Below, piece by piece: positions 2,897 through 20,324 of a stretch of 23,050 nt of DNA. A program made the translations under genes and the position numbers. Numbering within the stretch: the first letter of the stretch is position 1; every line of letters starts with the position of its first letter. This stretch comes from a virus, in the IMG/VR virus record IMGVR_UViG_3300009788_000309, positions 1 to 23,050 of that record; one strand, written 5' to 3'. The notes beneath the pieces were generated by a model. The model had not been told where the DNA came from, made no database searches, and worked only from the letters and a program-made list of their open reading frames with translations.

Positions 2897-4435
2897 ATGG
2901 CATTATCAAATAAAGATTTCTTAGAATTAAATGTTTTGCTACTGGCTGGAAATAAAACCTTAGAAGGGACAGGCGTTGCTTTGTTCGTGTCGACTGATGA
3001 CACGCTGGGAACCTTAGAAAACAAATACAGAGTTTTTGAGACTTTTGGTGAAGTTGAAGAAGTCTATGACAGCACTGATGAGCCTTTTTTGGCACTTGAT
3101 AAATGGTTTTCGCAAACGCCATTGCCTAAAAAAATAATCGTTGCGCGTTATTTGCCTAGTGCTGTTTCAGCAATTCTTGAAGCAGCAGTCAACACAAAGA
3201 CGGCTGTTGAATTTGCAGCAATAACATCAACGTCTAGTTTTAATTTAACAGTTAATGGTTTGTTGGTCGAAAACATTAACCCTGATTTTTCAGGTGTTAG
3301 TGATTTAGCAACAGTTGCAACTATTCTGAGCGCAGCAATTACAGACGTTACAGTAACGTTTAATGCAGTTTCAGGGCGATTTGAATTTGTAAGCGACACA
3401 ACAGGCGCAGCGTCAACGCTAAGTTTTGGACTTGATGCGTCAGCACCGCTCGCCGTTGCTTTGGCTGATTTTATGGGACTAAAAGAAACAGACGGCGCAA
3501 TACTAAACCAAGGCGATGATGCTACTGTTCCTGTTTCAGGATCGCTTGCAATCATCAATGACGCACCGCTTAGCGACTTGATCATGTTTGATAATACGTT
3601 GTTATTCTCAACATTTACCCGTCAAAATAAAATAGATATTTCATCTGCATTTGAAGCACAAAAACAAGACAAATTTAAAATGGTATTTTGGGGCGATGAT
3701 GATGCAGCTAATTTATTATTAAATGACACAAGCGTTTTAGGTTTTGATTTAAAACAATTAGCATTAACAACACCGTCAACTGTTTACAGCTCATTACAAG
3801 ATTACAAGCATGTTGCAGCACCAGCTTATTTAAGCTCAATAAATTTTGATGCAACCAATGGAATGCGTAGCCTCAAGTTTTCAGCATTGGTTGACACAAT
3901 ACCTGATGCGCTGGATGAGACAGGCAAGCAAGCGTTAGATATTAACCGCGTCAATTATTATGCTGAATTTGCATCAGGTAATTTTTACGCGCAAGGCTCG
4001 CAGCCAAAAATCAATGTAACCAGTACGTCAATTTTTGCGCTTTATGCTTGGTTTGTGCCAGAGGTTAATTTTGCAATAGCTAATATATTATCAAGCCGTT
4101 TAATTGGAAATGACGTTGAAGGTCAAGCGGCTGTTGAAGGTGTCATTGGTGGTGTTTCTAATCAAGCAGTCAGAAACGGCTTTATTATTGACGGCTCAAC
4201 AGCAAGCGTTGTGCCTGTTAGCGCAGCGATGAAAGCGGACATTATAGCTGTTACTGGCAACGCTGATTTTAGCGGATTTTTACCAGCAGCAACAGGCTAC
4301 TTGCTTTTTGCAACGCCTTTTACGCAGCAAACACAACAACAGCGCGATAACGAAGAATTGCCACCTTTCTTTTTATGGGCAAAGTTTGACGGGTTTGTTG
4401 GCAAAATTATATTAAACGCTACTTTTGAAAATTAA
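2897..4435 (+). CDS. Tail sheath protein (DUF3383 family)
   Basis: A 512-aa contractile tail sheath subunit. The N-terminus (SNKDFLELNVLLLAGN, then VALFVSTDD and RVFETFGEVEEVYDS) and the following PKKIIVARYLPS strand are typical of DUF3383, a family of myovirus sheath proteins. Residues about 110-206 form an inserted beta-rich domain ending in GAILNQG, with close similarity to residues about 64-161 of the tail-fibre protein at 11573. The C-terminal half has NRVNYYAEFASGNFYAQG and the conserved sheath core through FIIDGS and LPPFFLWAKFDG. Sheath subunits polymerise around the tube and contract at infection. An AGGCGAC-type ribosome-binding site precedes the ATG; a 17-nt gap to the tube gene indicates co-transcription. 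Confidence 0.9.
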   Translation: MALSNKDFLELNVLLLAGNKTLEGTGVALFVSTDDTLGTLENKYRVFETFGEVEEVYDSTDEPFLALDKWFSQTPLPKKIIVARYLPSAVSAILEAAVNTKTAVEFAAITSTSSFNLTVNGLLVENINPDFSGVSDLATVATILSAAITDVTVTFNAVSGRFEFVSDTTGAASTLSFGLDASAPLAVALADFMGLKETDGAILNQGDDATVPVSGSLAIINDAPLSDLIMFDNTLLFSTFTRQNKIDISSAFEAQKQDKFKMVFWGDDDAANLLLNDTSVLGFDLKQLALTTPSTVYSSLQDYKHVAAPAYLSSINFDATNGMRSLKFSALVDTIPDALDETGKQALDINRVNYYAEFASGNFYAQGSQPKINVTSTSIFALYAWFVPEVNFAIANILSSRLIGNDVEGQAAVEGVIGGVSNQAVRNGFIIDGSTASVVPVSAAMKADIIAVTGNADFSGFLPAATGYLLFATPFTQQTQQQRDNEELPPFFLWAKFDGFVGKIILNATFEN

Positions 4436-4452
4436 GAATTGAGGAATATATT

Positions 4453-4908
4453 ATGGCTTTAGCAGTATCACCAGCAGCGGTTAAAATCTATATTTTAGAT
4501 GCACCTAATTTTTTCAATCCGACAGAGCCACTAGACGGTTTTGCAAACAGTGAACCATTAGTTTTTGAAGATGCGAAACAAGTTGCTAATAAACAAATAG
4601 GCGCGACTGGGAAGCATCAAATAGCATTGACTGGAGATAAAGGCACTGAATTTTCAATGAAGTTTCTAGCGTCTTCTTTTGAAGCAGCTAGATTTTCAGA
4701 TATGCGAGCATTAAATGAAGCTGGTGTTTTGCAAAAATTTGATATGACAATCAAATATATCGAAACAGGTTCTCATCATCAGTTGTTGAATGTTGTCATT
4801 CTAACAGCAACAACAGGAATAAACCCAGCAGCAGACGCATCATCAGTTATGACATTTAACTTTGATTGTGAGACTTCGCTTGCAACTTTAATTCAAACAG
4901 AAAGGTAA
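4453..4908 (+). CDS. Tail tube protein (DUF3277-like)
   Basis: A 151-aa protein immediately after the sheath gene, the standard place for the inner tail tube. It is beta-rich and has KIYILDAPNFFNPTEP near the N-terminus, then a strand pattern with DKGTEFSMKFLASSFEAARF. A C-terminal region follows with HQLLNVVILTATTGINPAADASSVMTFNFDCE. The last element resembles the DUF3277 tube family of myoviruses, in which strands line the central channel. The gene has an ATTGAGGAATA ribosome-binding site. Tube subunits stack into hexameric rings inside the sheath and conduct DNA. Function is supported by synteny with a confidently called sheath. Confidence 0.8.
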   Translation: MALAVSPAAVKIYILDAPNFFNPTEPLDGFANSEPLVFEDAKQVANKQIGATGKHQIALTGDKGTEFSMKFLASSFEAARFSDMRALNEAGVLQKFDMTIKYIETGSHHQLLNVVILTATTGINPAADASSVMTFNFDCETSLATLIQTER

Positions 4909-4915
4909 ATAATTG

Positions 4916-5359
4916 ATGCTAGATTTAAGTAGTTTTAAAAAGTTTGAAAGCCCTGATTTTATTATTGAAAGCGTTAAATTCAAATGCAAAAAACTAAACT
5001 CATTTGATGGTGCAGACTTTTTGAAAATTATATTCGGCAAAGAAGTCTTGTCAGATGCGTTAAACGCAATTGGTGATCATGTTGATATGACACCAGCACT
5101 TATCATCACGCTCATTGCTCAAGTTGATATTGATTTTTTAAAAGAAAAAATATTTCCTGTTGTTTTTTCAAACACGATTTGCAGTTATAAGACAAAACTA
5201 GGCGTTGAGATTAAGCCTCAGCCAGTCGAAATATGCAAAGAAGAAGTCGGCGAGATGATCGGGGTTTTTGATGTGTACGAAATATGCTTTCGCTTTATGC
5301 TGGTTAATTTTTTTTCATCTTTCGCCTCAATCAAAACACGTTTCAGCCTGAAGGCGTAA
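4916..5359 (+). CDS. Tail assembly chaperone, short (G-type) product
   Basis: 147 aa from the ATG at 4916; a TTG at 4913 is a less likely start. The gene lies between tail tube and tape measure, where long-tailed phages encode the chaperone that coats the tape measure during tail assembly. The protein has a mainly helical centre with GADFLKIIFGKEVLSDALNA. Close to its 3' end, codons AAT TTT TTT TCA contain eight T in a row (5308-5315). A -1 slip there opens a second frame that continues to 5547, giving the longer product listed separately. The zero-frame product ends at the TAA at 5357-5359. The family is diverse, so assignment depends on position and the frameshift arrangement. Confidence 0.8.
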   Translation: MLDLSSFKKFESPDFIIESVKFKCKKLNSFDGADFLKIIFGKEVLSDALNAIGDHVDMTPALIITLIAQVDIDFLKEKIFPVVFSNTICSYKTKLGVEIKPQPVEICKEEVGEMIGVFDVYEICFRFMLVNFFSSFASIKTRFSLKA

Positions 5360-5547
5360 GTTTCGAGACAGTCGAAACTGTAAATATTGATCCGATTTTA
5401 AGTAATACTGTAGCATGTGGTGGTTGTAGGTTTACTGATTTATTTGATTTAACGCTTGAGCATGTTTTTATGATAATAGAAATATACCAAGTTAAATTTG
5501 AAAATGAACGTAGAGGACGCAAACATGCAGAAAGCAATAGTGAGTAG
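4916..5547 (+). CDS. Tail assembly chaperone, -1 frameshift extended (GT-type) product
   Basis: The fusion is read as 4916-5314 and then, after stepping back one base, 5314-5544 plus the TAG at 5545-5547: 133 + 77 = 210 aa. The -1 frame is open from just after a TAA at 5305-5307 to the stop and reads like real protein (NTFQPEGVSFETVETVNIDP, then VACGGCRF and a basic C-terminus). It has no early ATG of its own. It ends 3 nt before the tape-measure ATG, which lacks a good ribosome-binding site and so is probably coupled to translation in this frame. G/GT frameshifting is known in lambda and many other long-tailed phages, where the T part binds tail protein. A homopolymer sequencing error is an alternative explanation. 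Confidence 0.78.
5308..5314 (+). other. Slippery heptamer T TTT TTT, programmed -1 frameshift site
   Basis: In the chaperone frame the codons are AAT TTT TTT TCA, so positions 5308-5314 form T TTT TTT, a perfect X XXY YYZ slippery sequence in which both P- and A-site tRNAs re-pair after a one-base step back. Slippage bypasses the zero-frame stop at 5357 and enters the open -1 frame. No strong downstream pseudoknot was recognised by eye, which is not unusual for phage sites. Confidence 0.78.
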
Positions 5548-5550
5548 ATA

Positions 5551-7026
5551 ATGGCAACAACTGTTATTGACACACTGATTACCAAACTCAAGTTTGTATC
5601 AGACACCAAGGGCATCAAGAAAGCAGAGCAAGGAATGGGTGGGCTTAGGCGTTCAACTGATTTCTTAAATGCTCGCTTGTTTTCGTTGCGTGGTACGCTT
5701 TTCGGGCTTGCTGGTGCATTTGCAGCTATCAAGTCCATTGACGCATTCACAAGTCAGCAAGAAGCGATACAGGGCGTTACACAAGCATTAAAGAACCTAG
5801 GCGCAACAGCGCCAGCCACACTTGAAGAAATAAACAAGTTTGCGGATACACAAGAACGGCTAACGGGTTTTGGAAATGAAAAAATAATAAAGGACATATC
5901 AGAGCCGTTGTTGGTATCGGGCGAAGCAACAAAGAAAAACTTTCTTCAAATCCAGCAGATAATTTTAAACTTAGCGTCAAAATCAGGGCGTGATTTGCGG
6001 TCAATTTCACAGCAAGTGATCGAGGCATTATCACGACCAACAGGCGCATTAACGCTACTCACACAAGCAGGGATTAAGACTAAGCTTTCGTTTCAACAAC
6101 AAATAACCGCGATGCAGAAAACGGGCAACATCGCTGGCGCAACTAGTCTTGTTTTAAATTTATTGTCTAAGCGATTAAAAGGACTTGCAGCAGCTAATGC
6201 TGATACTGCCTCAGGTTCATTTATTCAATTAAAAAATAATATAGGTGATTTATCAAAGAGCGTTGGATCGTTAATCTTACAAGCGTTAGAGCCGTTTATT
6301 AAACATTTGAATACAATTATATTGGCGATACTTAAAAACAAAAAAGCATTGGACAAGATTGTCTCACGTATCGCAGAATTGACAAAAGTAGTTCTTTTTG
6401 TAACCACGGCATTTATAGCATTTAAAATTGCGATGGGTTTTGCAAGTTTAATTAAAGTATTTACTTTAGCGATAAGAGGTTTAGCGATTGCCTTTGGTTT
6501 TTTATCAGCTAATCCTATTGTGATTATTATCACTCTTTTAATTGCAGCAGTTATTGGATTAGTCTTTGTTTTTGTTACTCACTTTGCAACGATCAAACGA
6601 GTTGTTAAGGAAGTCTTTGGTTTTATTGGAACAGAAGTTGACAAAGCTATTGCAGATTTAAAACGATTTGAGGACTTTTTCAAAAAATCAAAAATTGGAA
6701 AAGCATTTATAGGCGAAGGTAAGCAAATAAAATCAGGAGCAAGTGAAGTCTCTAAGTCGCAAGTTGGCAAAGCATTTTTGGGTGAATTGTCGAAAACTGG
6801 CAGTTTTATATCTAACGAATTTAAAGCTGGAAAATCTTTTTTTACTGGTTCTTTTGTTGCGCCAGCTATCGGCTCATCTCAAGTGCAAAAAACAATTACT
6901 CAGCACAATAATATAACGGTAAGTGCAACAGCAACTAGCCCTGATTTTGCCGAGCGTTTTGCTAGTCATCTTGGAACAATAATTAAAGGTGCTGCTCATA
7001 ATATCGACAGCGGCATTAAACGGTGA
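5551..7026 (+). CDS. Tail tape measure protein
   Basis: 491 aa, starting 3 nt after the stop of the chaperone frameshift frame. The protein has the tape-measure signature: an N-terminal helical segment (TKGIKKAEQGMGGLRRS), a long Ala/Gln/Leu-rich helical middle with QEAIQGVTQALKNLG and LLTQAGIKTKLSFQQQ. A strongly hydrophobic block of several possible membrane segments covers about residues 280-348 (VVLFVTTAFIAFKIAM through VIGLVFVFVTHFA). The C-terminal part is Gly/Ser-rich. The hydrophobic block is common in tape measures and may enter the host membrane at DNA injection. At about 0.15 nm per residue, the usual rule for tape measures, the tail would be near 75 nm, which is short for a myovirus. 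Confidence 0.88.
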   Translation: MATTVIDTLITKLKFVSDTKGIKKAEQGMGGLRRSTDFLNARLFSLRGTLFGLAGAFAAIKSIDAFTSQQEAIQGVTQALKNLGATAPATLEEINKFADTQERLTGFGNEKIIKDISEPLLVSGEATKKNFLQIQQIILNLASKSGRDLRSISQQVIEALSRPTGALTLLTQAGIKTKLSFQQQITAMQKTGNIAGATSLVLNLLSKRLKGLAAANADTASGSFIQLKNNIGDLSKSVGSLILQALEPFIKHLNTIILAILKNKKALDKIVSRIAELTKVVLFVTTAFIAFKIAMGFASLIKVFTLAIRGLAIAFGFLSANPIVIIITLLIAAVIGLVFVFVTHFATIKRVVKEVFGFIGTEVDKAIADLKRFEDFFKKSKIGKAFIGEGKQIKSGASEVSKSQVGKAFLGELSKTGSFISNEFKAGKSFFTGSFVAPAIGSSQVQKTITQHNNITVSATATSPDFAERFASHLGTIIKGAAHNIDSGIKR

Positions 7027-9792: not shown

Positions 9793-11001
9793 ATGGCAAA
9801 AATTACAGCAACAGGCGTTGAATTAACGCCACTAGACGAATATGTAACGCTGATTAACAATGCGTTTATTACCGCATTCGGCAGCAACATAAGCCTTGAT
9901 CCATCAACGCCACAGGGACAGATTATAGGCGTATTAGCTGAAGCTTTAACACAATTAGATCAAAGCGTAGTTGATGTTGCAAATTCTTATTCATTTAAAC
10001 AAGCGGTCGGCGTAGCATTAGATAATGTCGCAGCTAATCTTAATGTTGAGCGGAAAGAAGCCATAAAAACAATTGTTGAATGCGATTTGCGAGGCGTTGC
10101 ATTTACAGTAATTGCAGCAGGATCAAAAGCTAAAAATTCAGACGATGATACATTTAGTTTATTGAGCGAGGTGCAGCTTGACGGATTGGGTATTGGTTCG
10201 GGTTCTTTTCAATCGGATAAAGAAGGTGAAATTTTTGTTGAAGCCGATACACTAAACCAAGTGGCAACGGCGGTTAACGGATGGGAGACTGTAAACAATC
10301 CAGCCGATGGCGTGACAGGTCAAGATGTCGAAGAAAATTTAAACGTCAGAACACGCTATCAATCATCAGTAACAATAAACGCGCTAGGCTATAAACAAGC
10401 CGTTGAAGCGTCATTAAAAGCAATTAGCAATGTAACCGATGCCAGAGTTTTTGAGAATTTTACCAGTTCAGACAAAATTGTTGAAGGTGTAACATTACTG
10501 CCGCACAGCATCGGAGCGTCAGTCTTAGGTGGTGATGTTGTCGACATAGCAAAGGTTTTGGCATTAAAAAATTCAGAAGGCACAAATTTCACAGGATCAA
10601 CAGTAATTCCAGTCGTTGATTTTGCAAACAATATAAATTTTGACGTTCGATTTTTTGAAACAACAGAAGTTGAAATAATCATTGAATTAGATATTACAAC
10701 AGATAGCACATACCCTGCTGATGGTGATGATCAGATTAAGCAAAACTTGATTGATTATTTTGCTGGCACATTAGATTTAAACAATGCTGGTTTTGATTTA
10801 AGCGGACTAGGCATTGCAGAGAATGTCCGCATTAGTCGATTGTTTACGCCGATTAACCAAGTTGTGGGTTTTGAGGTAAACAGTTTATTGATTGCACGTT
10901 CGGGCGATACGGCGATAGCTTCTGATGCGGTTATAAATTTAGATGAAATATCGCTACTGTTAGAAAGCAATATAACAATAACTAAGACGATAACATTATG
11001 A
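9793..11001 (+). CDS. Baseplate wedge protein, gpJ-like
   Basis: A 402-aa baseplate J-like protein. The N-terminus has FGSNISLDPSTPQGQIIGVLAEAL, the typical 'xPsxxxGqlI' opening, then a helix. The middle has LRGVAFTVIAAGSKAKN, which corresponds to the G-x-x-x-x-x-I-PaGt strand. Next is NGWETVNNPADGVTGQDVEE, the conserved N-P-a-d-g-v-G-x-d-xEs turn, and NVRTRYQSSV (R-x-R). The C-terminal half has DARVFENFTSSD (V-x-n-n) and a ferredoxin-like repeat with VEIIIELDI. This protein links the hub to the wedges and fibres. The stop overlaps the next start (ATGA). Confidence 0.9.
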   Translation: MAKITATGVELTPLDEYVTLINNAFITAFGSNISLDPSTPQGQIIGVLAEALTQLDQSVVDVANSYSFKQAVGVALDNVAANLNVERKEAIKTIVECDLRGVAFTVIAAGSKAKNSDDDTFSLLSEVQLDGLGIGSGSFQSDKEGEIFVEADTLNQVATAVNGWETVNNPADGVTGQDVEENLNVRTRYQSSVTINALGYKQAVEASLKAISNVTDARVFENFTSSDKIVEGVTLLPHSIGASVLGGDVVDIAKVLALKNSEGTNFTGSTVIPVVDFANNINFDVRFFETTEVEIIIELDITTDSTYPADGDDQIKQNLIDYFAGTLDLNNAGFDLSGLGIAENVRISRLFTPINQVVGFEVNSLLIARSGDTAIASDAVINLDEISLLLESNITITKTITL

Positions 11002-11576
11002 GCAGCGTTCAAGATTTACAATTAAGCAATTTAACTGATTTGATTATTGGTCAATATAACGATGCTGAAACATTGCAAACGCTTACTGATGAAATATTAA
11101 AAGTTATACAAGATGAGCAAGTCGATGTTTTAAAAGAAATTCAAGATAGCGTCAATTTGGATAATGCTGGAACGTTCTTTTTAGATGTGATGGGTAATAA
11201 TTTTGGCTATCAACGACCGCTGATTGATGGCGTTATTGCTGATGATGTGTTTTATTTAAAACTGATTAAGGCCTTTATTTTAGGCTTGTTTTTTGATGAT
11301 ATGTCGCAATCAGTGAATAAAGTATTAAAAGCAGCTTATGCAAATGGATTTCTTAGTGATAATTTTAACATGACTTCAACATTAGTCATTGAGCGAGGTG
11401 ATTTAACAACGCAAGCAATTTCTGATATTATAGCGACAGGGTTACCAATACGACCTGCTGGCAAGCGGTATGACGCGATAACAGTGCCGACAGACGGTTG
11501 TTTATTTGGTTTTGATGGCATAGGCAAGGGCTTTGATCAAGCCCCGTACGCCGTAGATTTAGGCACTTTAAAATGA
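10998..11576 (+). CDS. Baseplate protein, DUF2612-like (gpI-type wedge)
   Basis: 192 aa, started by an ATGA overlap with the gpJ-like gene. It has an N-terminal helical region (LTDLIIGQYNDAETLQTL, then DVLKEIQDSVNLDNAGTFFL) ending in DVMGNNFGYQRPLIDG, the characteristic DUF2612 element (l-D-x-x-G-x-i-x-g-x-R-p). A VFYLKLIKAFILG helix is next. The C-terminus has LPIRPAGKRYD, as in proteins where gpI meets the tail fibre. Its role is to connect the wedge to the receptor-binding protein encoded next, with which it again overlaps by ATGA. Confidence 0.83.
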   Translation: MSSVQDLQLSNLTDLIIGQYNDAETLQTLTDEILKVIQDEQVDVLKEIQDSVNLDNAGTFFLDVMGNNFGYQRPLIDGVIADDVFYLKLIKAFILGLFFDDMSQSVNKVLKAAYANGFLSDNFNMTSTLVIERGDLTTQAISDIIATGLPIRPAGKRYDAITVPTDGCLFGFDGIGKGFDQAPYAVDLGTLK

Positions 11577-14017
11577 GCAGAAAAACAGAAGGCTTAATTA
11601 TAACGCTGGATGACGTATGGGCAGAAGTTGGCGATAAGGCGTTACCGCCTTATGATGTTGATGGTGGATTTCCTGCATCGATGAGCGTACCAGCAACGCA
11701 TGCTTTTATCTTATCAAATACAATTACAGCAACAGTCGGAGATTTCAGCGCATTATTAGCAACGGGATTTGGCAAAGCGACCATAAACGGCGTAACGTCT
11801 GAATTTAACGTGGATTTCACAGGCGTATCAACATTTGATCAAGTCGCTGGCGCATTGCAGGGAGCGATGATTGCAGCAGCACCAACGCTTATTGTAACTG
11901 TTAAATACTTGTCTGATGTAAACAAGTTTAAGATTGAAAGTGCCACGACTGGTGAGAGTTCAACAGTCGATTTTTTCATTGTTCCAAGTACAGGCGTTGA
12001 TATTTCTGTTTTGCTTAGAACGTCAGCCGCAGAAGGTGCAGTACTAAACCAAGGGCTAGGCGATTTCCCGCGCAGAACAACGTTTAACTTTGCATATAAC
12101 CAGCTTTATGCGCTAGGGTTTGATGTTAATCGCTATGGTGCTAATTTAGCATGGGATGAAGTCGTTTCTTATGAAATTAGCGCAGTTGTTATTGGCTCAG
12201 ATGATAATCGTTATCTTTCTTTAGTTACAGGAAATATAGCGAATGATCCAGTTGTTGGCGATGCGGTAACATCAATAATTTCTGCAGGCGTTAATTTCCA
12301 AGCAATCGACATACAACCCGGTGGTGATATAATTGTTGTAACTGGCACTGGTAGTGTTTTTAAATCGACTGACAATGGCGTTAATTTTTCGCTTATAAAT
12401 TCAGAAACATTTACAACTAATGATGGAATTGGTGAATTTACTATTGTTTTTAATGACACAATAGTTGTACAAGATTTAACGAGTGGACTTATTAAAATTT
12501 CATCGAATGAAGGCACGAGCTATGCTAATAGCGGTGTTTTCTTTAATTTTCCACAATTAGACACAGTAAATTTTATTGGTTTCCGATTATACGGTGCAAG
12601 AGCTGGTGATGGGCAACAAGCTGGTAATAATCCAACTTATCAAGTTGTTGGATTAACTGTAATCGGTTCTTTGATTTATGTCGTATTGTTTGACTTAATA
12701 ACGCCAAAAGCACGAATAATAAACACAACGCTTGATGTCAATAATATTGATGAAGATGGATTAGATTCAATGGGTGTATTTCTCGATGGAGATGATTTAT
12801 ATATCGCTTTTGACACCGATGGTGGGTTTGAGTTTTCAATCGCTAAATATGATATTACAGACACTGCTATAGAATCAGTTGATATAGAAGTGTTTTCTAG
12901 TATTCCGACACCTGAAGTATTTACAGGATTTGGTGACGGTCGAGGGCTGATCATAATTAAAGAAGATACAGCAGGAAATAAGTGGTTATTTGCATCAGGT
13001 AGAGATGTTAATAATTCGCAAGTTTCAGGTTATTTGAGGGTTGATATAACTAGTTTAACGCAAGCAAACTGGACGCTTGATATTTTAACTGTTTCAAATT
13101 CAAATTTGCCGTCAGTATTAAACAACGCATCTAATACAGACACACTGCCTCAGTCTTATTTTGCAAATGATATTTTTTTATATTTTACTGTTCAAGTTAT
13201 AGGTTCTAGTTTTACACCTGATGTTGCATTTATCAGAACAGATATTAACTCAAAAGATGGACTAGATTATGCGTGGGAGTATTATAATGCTGAACAAAAT
13301 AATTTTAATGATAACGATGGGCGCGCTTTTTTTGTTAAAAGCGATAATTCTGAAATTTTAGTATTAAACGGCGGAGCTAATAATCCTAATCAAGTTACTG
13401 ATCCGCGCGAATTTTTATCTATTTTAGGTGTATCATCTCAAGCTTGGAATGCTCTTGATAGCACAGAAACAACAATAGAAAGCACAACAAATTCATTAAC
13501 TGTAAATGAAGATAATATCTTAAATCGTGTTGATATAAACATAGCACCCAGTCTATTAGCTAAACTAAGTCAATTAGGTAACTTAGACGCAACGCTAACG
13601 CTAGCATTGACTGCTGATATTGTCATTTCTGAAATAGTATCAAAATCTGATCCGTTGCAAAAAATAGATTTAATATATGACTTTACAAATAATCAATTGA
13701 AAGTAACAAATACTGGTGCTAATGATATTCAACTATGGTATCAGGTCGATGCGACTGTTGACGCTATAAACAATCCGTTTATCAGAACATTCGGCGCAAA
13801 TACTGATAAGCAGACCATAACACCAGCATCAACGGGCTTTATGACTGATGACGGGCTTGTTGATATTGATTTATCGTTGCTTGCAATAAATGATAGACAA
13901 GAAATAAAAGGGCATATTATATTTGATAATGGCGATATTACACGCTTTGAATTTGTGGAAATAATCAAACTAACAACCAGCACAATTAAATTGGCTGGAG
14001 GTTTTATCAATGAGTAA
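11573..14017 (+). CDS. Tail fibre / receptor-binding protein with sheath-type domain
   Basis: An 814-aa protein in the fibre position. Residues about 64-161 resemble the inserted domain of the sheath gene (T-[VI]-N-G, DF-[ST]-GVS, TTG-x-x-ST, GA-[VI]-LNQG). Residues about 170-225 hold an anchor-like element, FNFAYNQLYALGFDVN, then a W-x-x-x-x-x-Y start and GSDDNRYLSLVTG with NDP. This resembles the short carbohydrate-binding modules of phage fibres. Two Asp-box-like motifs follow, STDNGVNF (265-272) and SSNEGTSY (310-317), suggesting a sialidase-like beta-propeller at about residues 235-560. The C-terminal 200 residues are Ser/Thr/Asn-rich beta structure. A separate chaperone is not obvious, though the next small gene may serve. 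Receptor binding is inference from gene order and domains. Confidence 0.72.
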   Translation: MSRKTEGLIITLDDVWAEVGDKALPPYDVDGGFPASMSVPATHAFILSNTITATVGDFSALLATGFGKATINGVTSEFNVDFTGVSTFDQVAGALQGAMIAAAPTLIVTVKYLSDVNKFKIESATTGESSTVDFFIVPSTGVDISVLLRTSAAEGAVLNQGLGDFPRRTTFNFAYNQLYALGFDVNRYGANLAWDEVVSYEISAVVIGSDDNRYLSLVTGNIANDPVVGDAVTSIISAGVNFQAIDIQPGGDIIVVTGTGSVFKSTDNGVNFSLINSETFTTNDGIGEFTIVFNDTIVVQDLTSGLIKISSNEGTSYANSGVFFNFPQLDTVNFIGFRLYGARAGDGQQAGNNPTYQVVGLTVIGSLIYVVLFDLITPKARIINTTLDVNNIDEDGLDSMGVFLDGDDLYIAFDTDGGFEFSIAKYDITDTAIESVDIEVFSSIPTPEVFTGFGDGRGLIIIKEDTAGNKWLFASGRDVNNSQVSGYLRVDITSLTQANWTLDILTVSNSNLPSVLNNASNTDTLPQSYFANDIFLYFTVQVIGSSFTPDVAFIRTDINSKDGLDYAWEYYNAEQNNFNDNDGRAFFVKSDNSEILVLNGGANNPNQVTDPREFLSILGVSSQAWNALDSTETTIESTTNSLTVNEDNILNRVDINIAPSLLAKLSQLGNLDATLTLALTADIVISEIVSKSDPLQKIDLIYDFTNNQLKVTNTGANDIQLWYQVDATVDAINNPFIRTFGANTDKQTITPASTGFMTDDGLVDIDLSLLAINDRQEIKGHIIFDNGDITRFEFVEIIKLTTSTIKLAGGFINE

Positions 14018-17529: not shown

Positions 17530-17886
17530 TTAAGGATTATCATGCAGGTTGCCTATTCTTTCCACCCTTAGGCAAATATCCATAGAAAAAAAAGAACTCA
17601 GCGAACGGCTGCCAATTCCAAAATCAACTTCCCATCCGCAATTTTGCCAAACCACGGTAAATGGATGTTGCATGCCACTCCCTCTCACTCTGAATAAATC
17701 ACCTTCAAAAAGTTTCTCACCCAGCAGCATTTCACCCGTAAATTGCCCGATCGTTTCAGGTAAGACGGGCTGTACGTACTGATCATTTTTAATCCACGCC
17801 CAGTCGCTTCCTTTGAGTTGTGATAACTCGCCGTAAATCCATTCACCGCTCCACCGCTGTTTCCCTCTAAACTCAATCTCTCTCAT
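17530..17886 (-). CDS. YopX family protein
   Basis: A 118-aa protein with the YopX signature: MREIEFRGKQRWSGEWIYGEL (the xx-I-x-FRGk-x-x-x-x-x-WvyG opening), then VLPETIGQFTGE (v-x-p-eTiGQyTGl). Next is LFEGDLFRV (i-fEGDiv) and a C-terminal VVWQNCGWEVD (V-x-w-x-x-x-g-f). YopX proteins are common in phage and prophage early regions and their biochemical role is unknown. It starts in a TGATG overlap with the upstream small gene. Confidence 0.88.
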   Translation of the reverse strand: MREIEFRGKQRWSGEWIYGELSQLKGSDWAWIKNDQYVQPVLPETIGQFTGEMLLGEKLFEGDLFRVRGSGMQHPFTVVWQNCGWEVDFGIGSRSLSSFFSMDICLRVERIGNLHDNP

Positions 17887-19189: not shown

Positions 19190-19993
19190 TTAAAATGCCT
19201 CCTCGTCTTCACTAACAGCACTTTGATCTAATGCCGTATTTCTCAAGCTAGTTAGTTGTTCATCACTAACAATGTAACTCAACTGCATTTTAGCGATCAT
19301 CTGTTCTACATTATCAGGACGTTTGACAGCATATCTAATCGCTTCATGCCATTTTTCATCAGGTAAAGCCACACGCTCAACCTCGACAAGCTCAGGTACC
19401 ACGGGCGCACCTTCAATGGCTTTCTGCTCAAGCACAGCAGCCCTAGGCGTTACATTATGTATAAGCGCGGGTGTTGGATAGTCTTGTGCTTCTTCGCGCG
19501 TTATAAGCCCACACAGCGCGTCAGGGAAGGCATCACGAACAGCAAAGCCTCTAGCCCTCATCTGCAACATCCGTCTTGGGTATAACTTCCAAACCGCTTT
19601 GCTCCACAAGTTGGCTGTTTTAGCATCGCTTACGGAAAACTTAGAAATAGTAGGCGCATCACCTTTTCTTTCGATATGACATGTCGCTACCATCGCATCA
19701 CCAGTGCCTTCGATTATTTCCTCGCATGAGATAAAATCTTTATGATTTTTTGCTAATGCTAGTAACGCATCACCCCACAACGTAGGCTTGCCATTGATTA
19801 TTGCTATGTTCTGCAAGCCGTACATAGGCGTAAGCCCTACTTCAGCAGCGTACTGCATTGCTAACATGCACTCCATCGGCTTGCCCCGTTTTTCCTTCGG
19901 AGCAAATTCACTATTGGAAATCTTCGTGCATATATCTAGCATCTGATCCATGCCTGAAACTTCCAACCCTAATAATGTTATTGTTTTACTCAT
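19190..19993 (-). CDS. recT: RecT family single-strand annealing protein
   Basis: 267 aa from the ATG at 19993, which has an AGAGGTGG ribosome-binding site; a GTG at 20002 would add three residues. RecT features are visible: the helix EKRGKPMECMLAMQYAAEVGLTP, then GLQNIAIINGKPTLWGDALLAL and an ERKGD strand pair. The most typical motif is YPRRMLQMRARGFAVRDAFPDAL, roughly residues 138-160, the conserved P-x-x-M-x-x-xRA-x-xxAxRDAFpd-l. RecT-type proteins pair complementary single strands and drive strand exchange in phage recombination, usually with a 5'-3' exonuclease. No exonuclease gene was recognised in this window. The start overlaps the upstream gene by 8 nt, so expression is coupled. Confidence 0.93.
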   Translation of the reverse strand: MSKTITLLGLEVSGMDQMLDICTKISNSEFAPKEKRGKPMECMLAMQYAAEVGLTPMYGLQNIAIINGKPTLWGDALLALAKNHKDFISCEEIIEGTGDAMVATCHIERKGDAPTISKFSVSDAKTANLWSKAVWKLYPRRMLQMRARGFAVRDAFPDALCGLITREEAQDYPTPALIHNVTPRAAVLEQKAIEGAPVVPELVEVERVALPDEKWHEAIRYAVKRPDNVEQMIAKMQLSYIVSDEQLTSLRNTALDQSAVSEDEEAF

Positions 19994-20324
19994 CTTCACC
20001 ACCTCTTATATTTTCATAATGTTCAATTTCAGATTTTTCTACATATTCAGAAAAACCATCTTCAATTGGTAATCGTTTCCCCATACTCAACAGGTCTATT
20101 TTCTTCAAAAACTTATCTCTATAAACAACGCAATTAGCGCAGCGACATTCATCACTACAACCATTAGCACGTCCCATCCCAAAAATTAGCCCGTTTAGCG
20201 CATAGTGTATTGCATGTACGATACGCTTATGTTCTTTAGTTGTTTTATCATTTGATAAACTATTTTTGCTCATATAAGCCTTAACGTCTTTCGCCCATAC
20301 CTTCATTTTCACTTTATCACTCAT
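19986..20324 (-). CDS. Unknown protein with Cys cluster (112 aa)
   Basis: ATG at 20324, overlapping the preceding gene by 8 nt, and ending within the RecT start region. It has an N-terminal basic region (MSDKVKMKVWAKDVKAYM) and a central helix (HKRIVHAIHYALNGL). A cluster of C56-x3-C60-x-C62-x2-C65 could bind zinc or, less likely, an iron-sulphur cluster. The C-terminus is acidic. Genes sitting just before an annealase are often DNA-binding or recombination accessories, but no family was recognised here. Confidence 0.68.
   Translation of the reverse strand: MSDKVKMKVWAKDVKAYMSKNSLSNDKTTKEHKRIVHAIHYALNGLIFGMGRANGCSDECRCANCVVYRDKFLKKIDLLSMGKRLPIEDGFSEYVEKSEIEHYENIRGGEDE

Follow-up and report, generated by a model that had tools for sequence, protein, structure and literature searches.

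Programmed -1 frameshifts have long been known from many phages, and the tail gene described here adds a well-supported, if unremarkable, case. In lambda, two products, G and GT, are made from one start by a -1 slip close to the 3' end of G, as we propose for the window, by which we mean the entire 23,050-base IMG/VR virus record analysed here; the lambda T frame likewise stops just before the tape-measure gene, and the shift occurs at a low level (PMC5009743). The two differ in that lambda has a long non-contractile tail whereas the window carries a contractile-tail module, and the two G sequences are unrelated at the level tested. The lambda slippery site, GGGAAAG, is also different from that of the window. 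Phage P2 has a contractile tail, as the window does, and its E and E+E' products depend on a -1 slip at a heptamer within a T run, the site lying between the tube gene and that for the tape measure (PMC3091744). This heptamer, TTTTTTG, ends in G where that of the window ends in T, and it needs no downstream stem-loop (PMC3091744); no sequence similarity between the P2 proteins and those of the window was demonstrated in this analysis. A further comparison is offered by Burkholderia phage Magia and its relatives with a DUF3383 sheath (including Pantoea PA-1, Edwardsiella GF-2, Acinetobacter Ab105-1phi and ctfzr933), which share with the window the gene order, a homologous T domain and a canonical -1 heptamer at the junction, although their heptamers vary and their G domains are not detectably similar to the G of the window. 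In Magia, the gene was annotated as a frameshift product by the depositors. An earlier reading of the window, made from the sequence only, had likened the locus to lambda G/GT, and this likeness is borne out by the gene order, the phase, the open T frame and the homology of T.

The contractile-tail module begins at 2897 and comprises, on the plus strand, a 512-residue tail sheath (DUF3383; 2897..4435; Pfam PF11863, E 1.6e-51; PHROG 205, tail sheath), a probable tail tube protein of 151 residues (4453..4908; PHROG 280, virion structural protein, E 2.7e-8, and a position 3' of the sheath), a short gene, a tape measure protein of 491 residues (5551..7026; PHROG 27166, tail length tape measure, E 2e-23, with a Pfam TMP_2 match below the cut-off), a Dit-like protein, a baseplate hub and baseplate J. 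Profile and position together identify the first two of these and the tape measure; tube and tape measure flank the short gene, which we call G (4916..5359, plus strand, 147 residues) and which occupies the slot annotated as tail assembly chaperone in relatives. Its start is most likely the ATG at 4916, which has AAAGG upstream, the listed TTG at 4913 lying one codon 5' of it, and its stop is the TAA at 5357-5359. Neither PHROGs nor Pfam contained a family match for G, hhalign detected no similarity to the G domains of the relatives, and a structure model of G built from two sequences was too poor to be of use (pLDDT 54). Tail assembly chaperones diverge fast. Since sequence comparison links G to no known chaperone, its identity as one rests on position and on T, and it is in this way that we infer a chaperone function for G and GT. 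Towards the edge of the record, an open frame with window base 1 as its start (1-813) matches the major capsid protein family PF09950; because it runs from base 1, the record is probably cut there.

Fifteen codons from its end, G contains the heptamer T TTT TTT (5308..5314, plus strand), the first part of a run of eight T (5308-5315) that in the G frame reads aaT TTT TTT Tca and thus has the phase that a -1 slip requires. From 5308, upstream of which a stop closes it, the -1 frame runs open as far as the TAG at 5545-5547. Beyond the slip it would add an extension, T, of 77 residues (5314..5547, plus strand), base 5314 being read twice in the predicted GT product of 210 residues; T is recognised by its open frame, its conservation in a near relative and a profile match. 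The sequence-only reading had described much of this correctly: the X XXY YYZ heptamer lies where it was placed, the zero frame ends at 5357 as claimed, the gap of 3 nt before the tape-measure ATG is there (the TAG ends at 5547 and the ATG is at 5551), and the -1 frame has no start of its own in the sense intended, the first ATG, GTG or TTG appearing only at 5470, from where 25 codons remain. The frame had been given as open from 5308 to 5545, of which the openness stands and the end needs adjustment, 5545 being the first base of the stop codon.

Slippery heptamers are by themselves poor guides in this AT-rich module, whose 18 genes contain 47 in frame, T TTT TTT accounting for three. Counting heptamers was accordingly rejected as evidence on its own, and the claim of a frameshift rests on the open frame and its conservation. 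Among the 47, only the T TTT TTT at 5308-5314 precedes a long open frame other than the next ordinary gene. An open stretch of 77 codons arose in 0.2% of first-order Markov trials on sequence of the same make-up, and the conservation in relatives lifts the junction far above chance.

The nearest relative, L018 (IMGVR_UViG_3300024265_000306), is a separately assembled metagenomic virus contig found by a scan of IMG/VR with the baseplate J protein, in which it is 76% identical to the window. Searching IMG/VR, GTDB genomes and phage records with the GT protein returned no close relative, and queries with sheath, tape measure and hub returned nothing closer than L018. The DNA of the junction region is about 68% identical between the two and their G proteins 54%, and L018 carries the identical AATTTTTTTTCATC (eight T) in the same phase, and there too both frames are open; its zero-frame product has 152 residues, and its -1 extension of 79 codons ends at a stop overlapping the tape-measure start. 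The two T extensions align without gaps over 76 residues with a score of 155, compared with 24 +/- 4.5 and a maximum of 46 in 1000 shuffles. Beyond the zero-frame stops, the -1 frame shows a dN of 0.46 and a dS of 1.34 (dN/dS about 0.34), and the other two frames contain 5-12 stops. The -1 extension is under purifying selection, and its conservation at this ratio argues that the -1 frame is coding.

The same signal extends to more distant phages. A profile of the window and L018 extensions matches the T domains of 12 relatives with a probability of 97% (score 55.9, P 1.1e-10), while none of 200 column shuffles scores above 20, and neither the reversed profile nor either of the remaining frames yields a match. 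PHROG 3976 matches the T of the window weakly (E 0.0036) and the T-frame ORFs of PA-1 and GF-2, in the same slot, strongly. The T domain can thus be recognised by profile even where G escapes detection, a help in locating genes of this kind in divergent phages. At the level of the slippery site, we compared 17 loci at the junction of the chaperone and the tape-measure frame, taken from phages with a related sheath and including the window and L018, with MyoSmar (L012) outside the comparison. A canonical -1 heptamer is present in 14 of the 17: T TTT TTT in the window, L018 and ctfzr933, T TTT TTC in PA-1 and MSO-5, T TTT TTA in GF-2, IKEMa6-1 and AB1 (the record of AB1 ends just past the site), T TTT TTG in a Helicobacter prophage, C CCT TTT in Magia, BgManors32 and WC36-2, A AAT TTT in Ab105-1phi, and A AAA AAG in L020. 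Six further annotated or deposited phages carry T TTT TTN, and five another canonical heptamer. ZHS and ST15-VIM1phi2.1 have a weaker heptamer or none, in neither case canonical, yet a matching T frame, and Gekk3-15 (L016), which has a different layout, shows neither a heptamer nor a recognisable T. A slippery site on a T run is not unusual, as most of the relatives read use T TTT TTN and P2 uses TTTTTTG. The site in L020, a distant virus contig, is of the dnaX type and lies at its chaperone junction (L020:5520-5526), with a T-like frame after it.

These comparisons allow other explanations of the junction to be weighed. Homopolymers are prone to error, and a ninth T lost in sequencing or assembly would make a single uninterrupted gene of G and T; the sequence-only reading had named nine T in the run, and a downstream frame that is not conserved, as the findings that would overturn it. 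L018, however, assembled separately and at some distance in DNA sequence, has exactly eight T in the same phase, relatives with shorter runs at the junction have the same two-frame layout, and the frame is conserved both in L018 and, by profile, in 12 phages. The same T8 in two separate assemblies, together with the conserved extension, makes a shared single-base error very unlikely, and we give this explanation almost no weight. Hardly more credible is an independent small T protein initiated within the -1 frame, or a T that is a decayed remnant. In the relatives, the T slot has often been annotated with a small ORF of its own (for example PA-1 ORF070), and L018 has an in-frame ATG at 3650, but in the window the start at 5470 would leave only 25 codons of the frame, conservation begins right at the slip, and a dN/dS of about 0.34 speaks against decay.

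A mechanism at the level of transcription is the chief rival and deserves somewhat more consideration: RNA polymerase could add one U (or drop two) on U8, so that GT would be translated conventionally from the altered mRNA, with an identical product. The T8 run is long, and slippage of bacterial polymerases is known for nine consecutive A or T (PMC5009743). Eight is nevertheless below the nine usually cited, and in distant relatives that share the gene pair the run is just 4-7 T long but a tandem-codon heptamer stays in phase, in keeping with slipping by the ribosome; we therefore consider polymerase slippage distinctly unlikely. It is likewise improbable, if slightly less so, that ribosome and RNA polymerase both make use of U8, in which case the G:GT ratio in the T8 lineage would be partly transcriptional, unlike that in relatives whose runs are short.

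Programmed -1 ribosomal frameshifting in the tail assembly chaperone gene is thus very probably the correct reading, judging from the sequence comparisons. Most ribosomes would stop at 5357-5359 and yield G, of 147 residues, and a minority, with tRNA-Phe in the P and A sites on TTT TTT, would shift by one base in the 5' direction on T TTT TTT and then read the -1 frame to 5547, yielding GT. By analogy with lambda, G would coat the tape measure protein, to which tube subunits would be brought by the T domain, and for this reason the G:GT ratio may be expected to matter for tail assembly. A point against this reading is that U UUU UUU supports far less shifting than A AAA AAG when placed in E. 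coli constructs (PMC5009743); such a weaker shift, which we infer for the window along with the slip itself, would agree with the low levels on which tail assembly relies. The locus adds an unannotated case of a tail-chaperone frameshift in an uncultivated phage lineage and leaves the known mechanism unchanged.

As to stimulatory elements, no Shine-Dalgarno-like stimulator was seen upstream of the heptamer, and no conserved structure was found downstream of it. The wider region proved no more stable than shuffles. Directly 3' of the zero-frame stop there is a stable hairpin, GTTTCGA-GACAG-TCGAAAC (5360-5378), which is absent as such in L018. It was rejected as a stimulator: it folds well, but lies 45 nt past the heptamer and is not conserved in L018. 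Elsewhere in the window, a T TTA AAA at 11567-11573 is located one codon 5' of the stop of a DUF2612 gene (10998-11576), and a -1 slip there would enter an overlapping gene of 814 residues (11573-14017), an arrangement that is probably due to chance. On the minus strand, the genes at 19190-20002 and 17530-17886 match the RecT and YopX families, respectively, just above the Pfam cut-offs.
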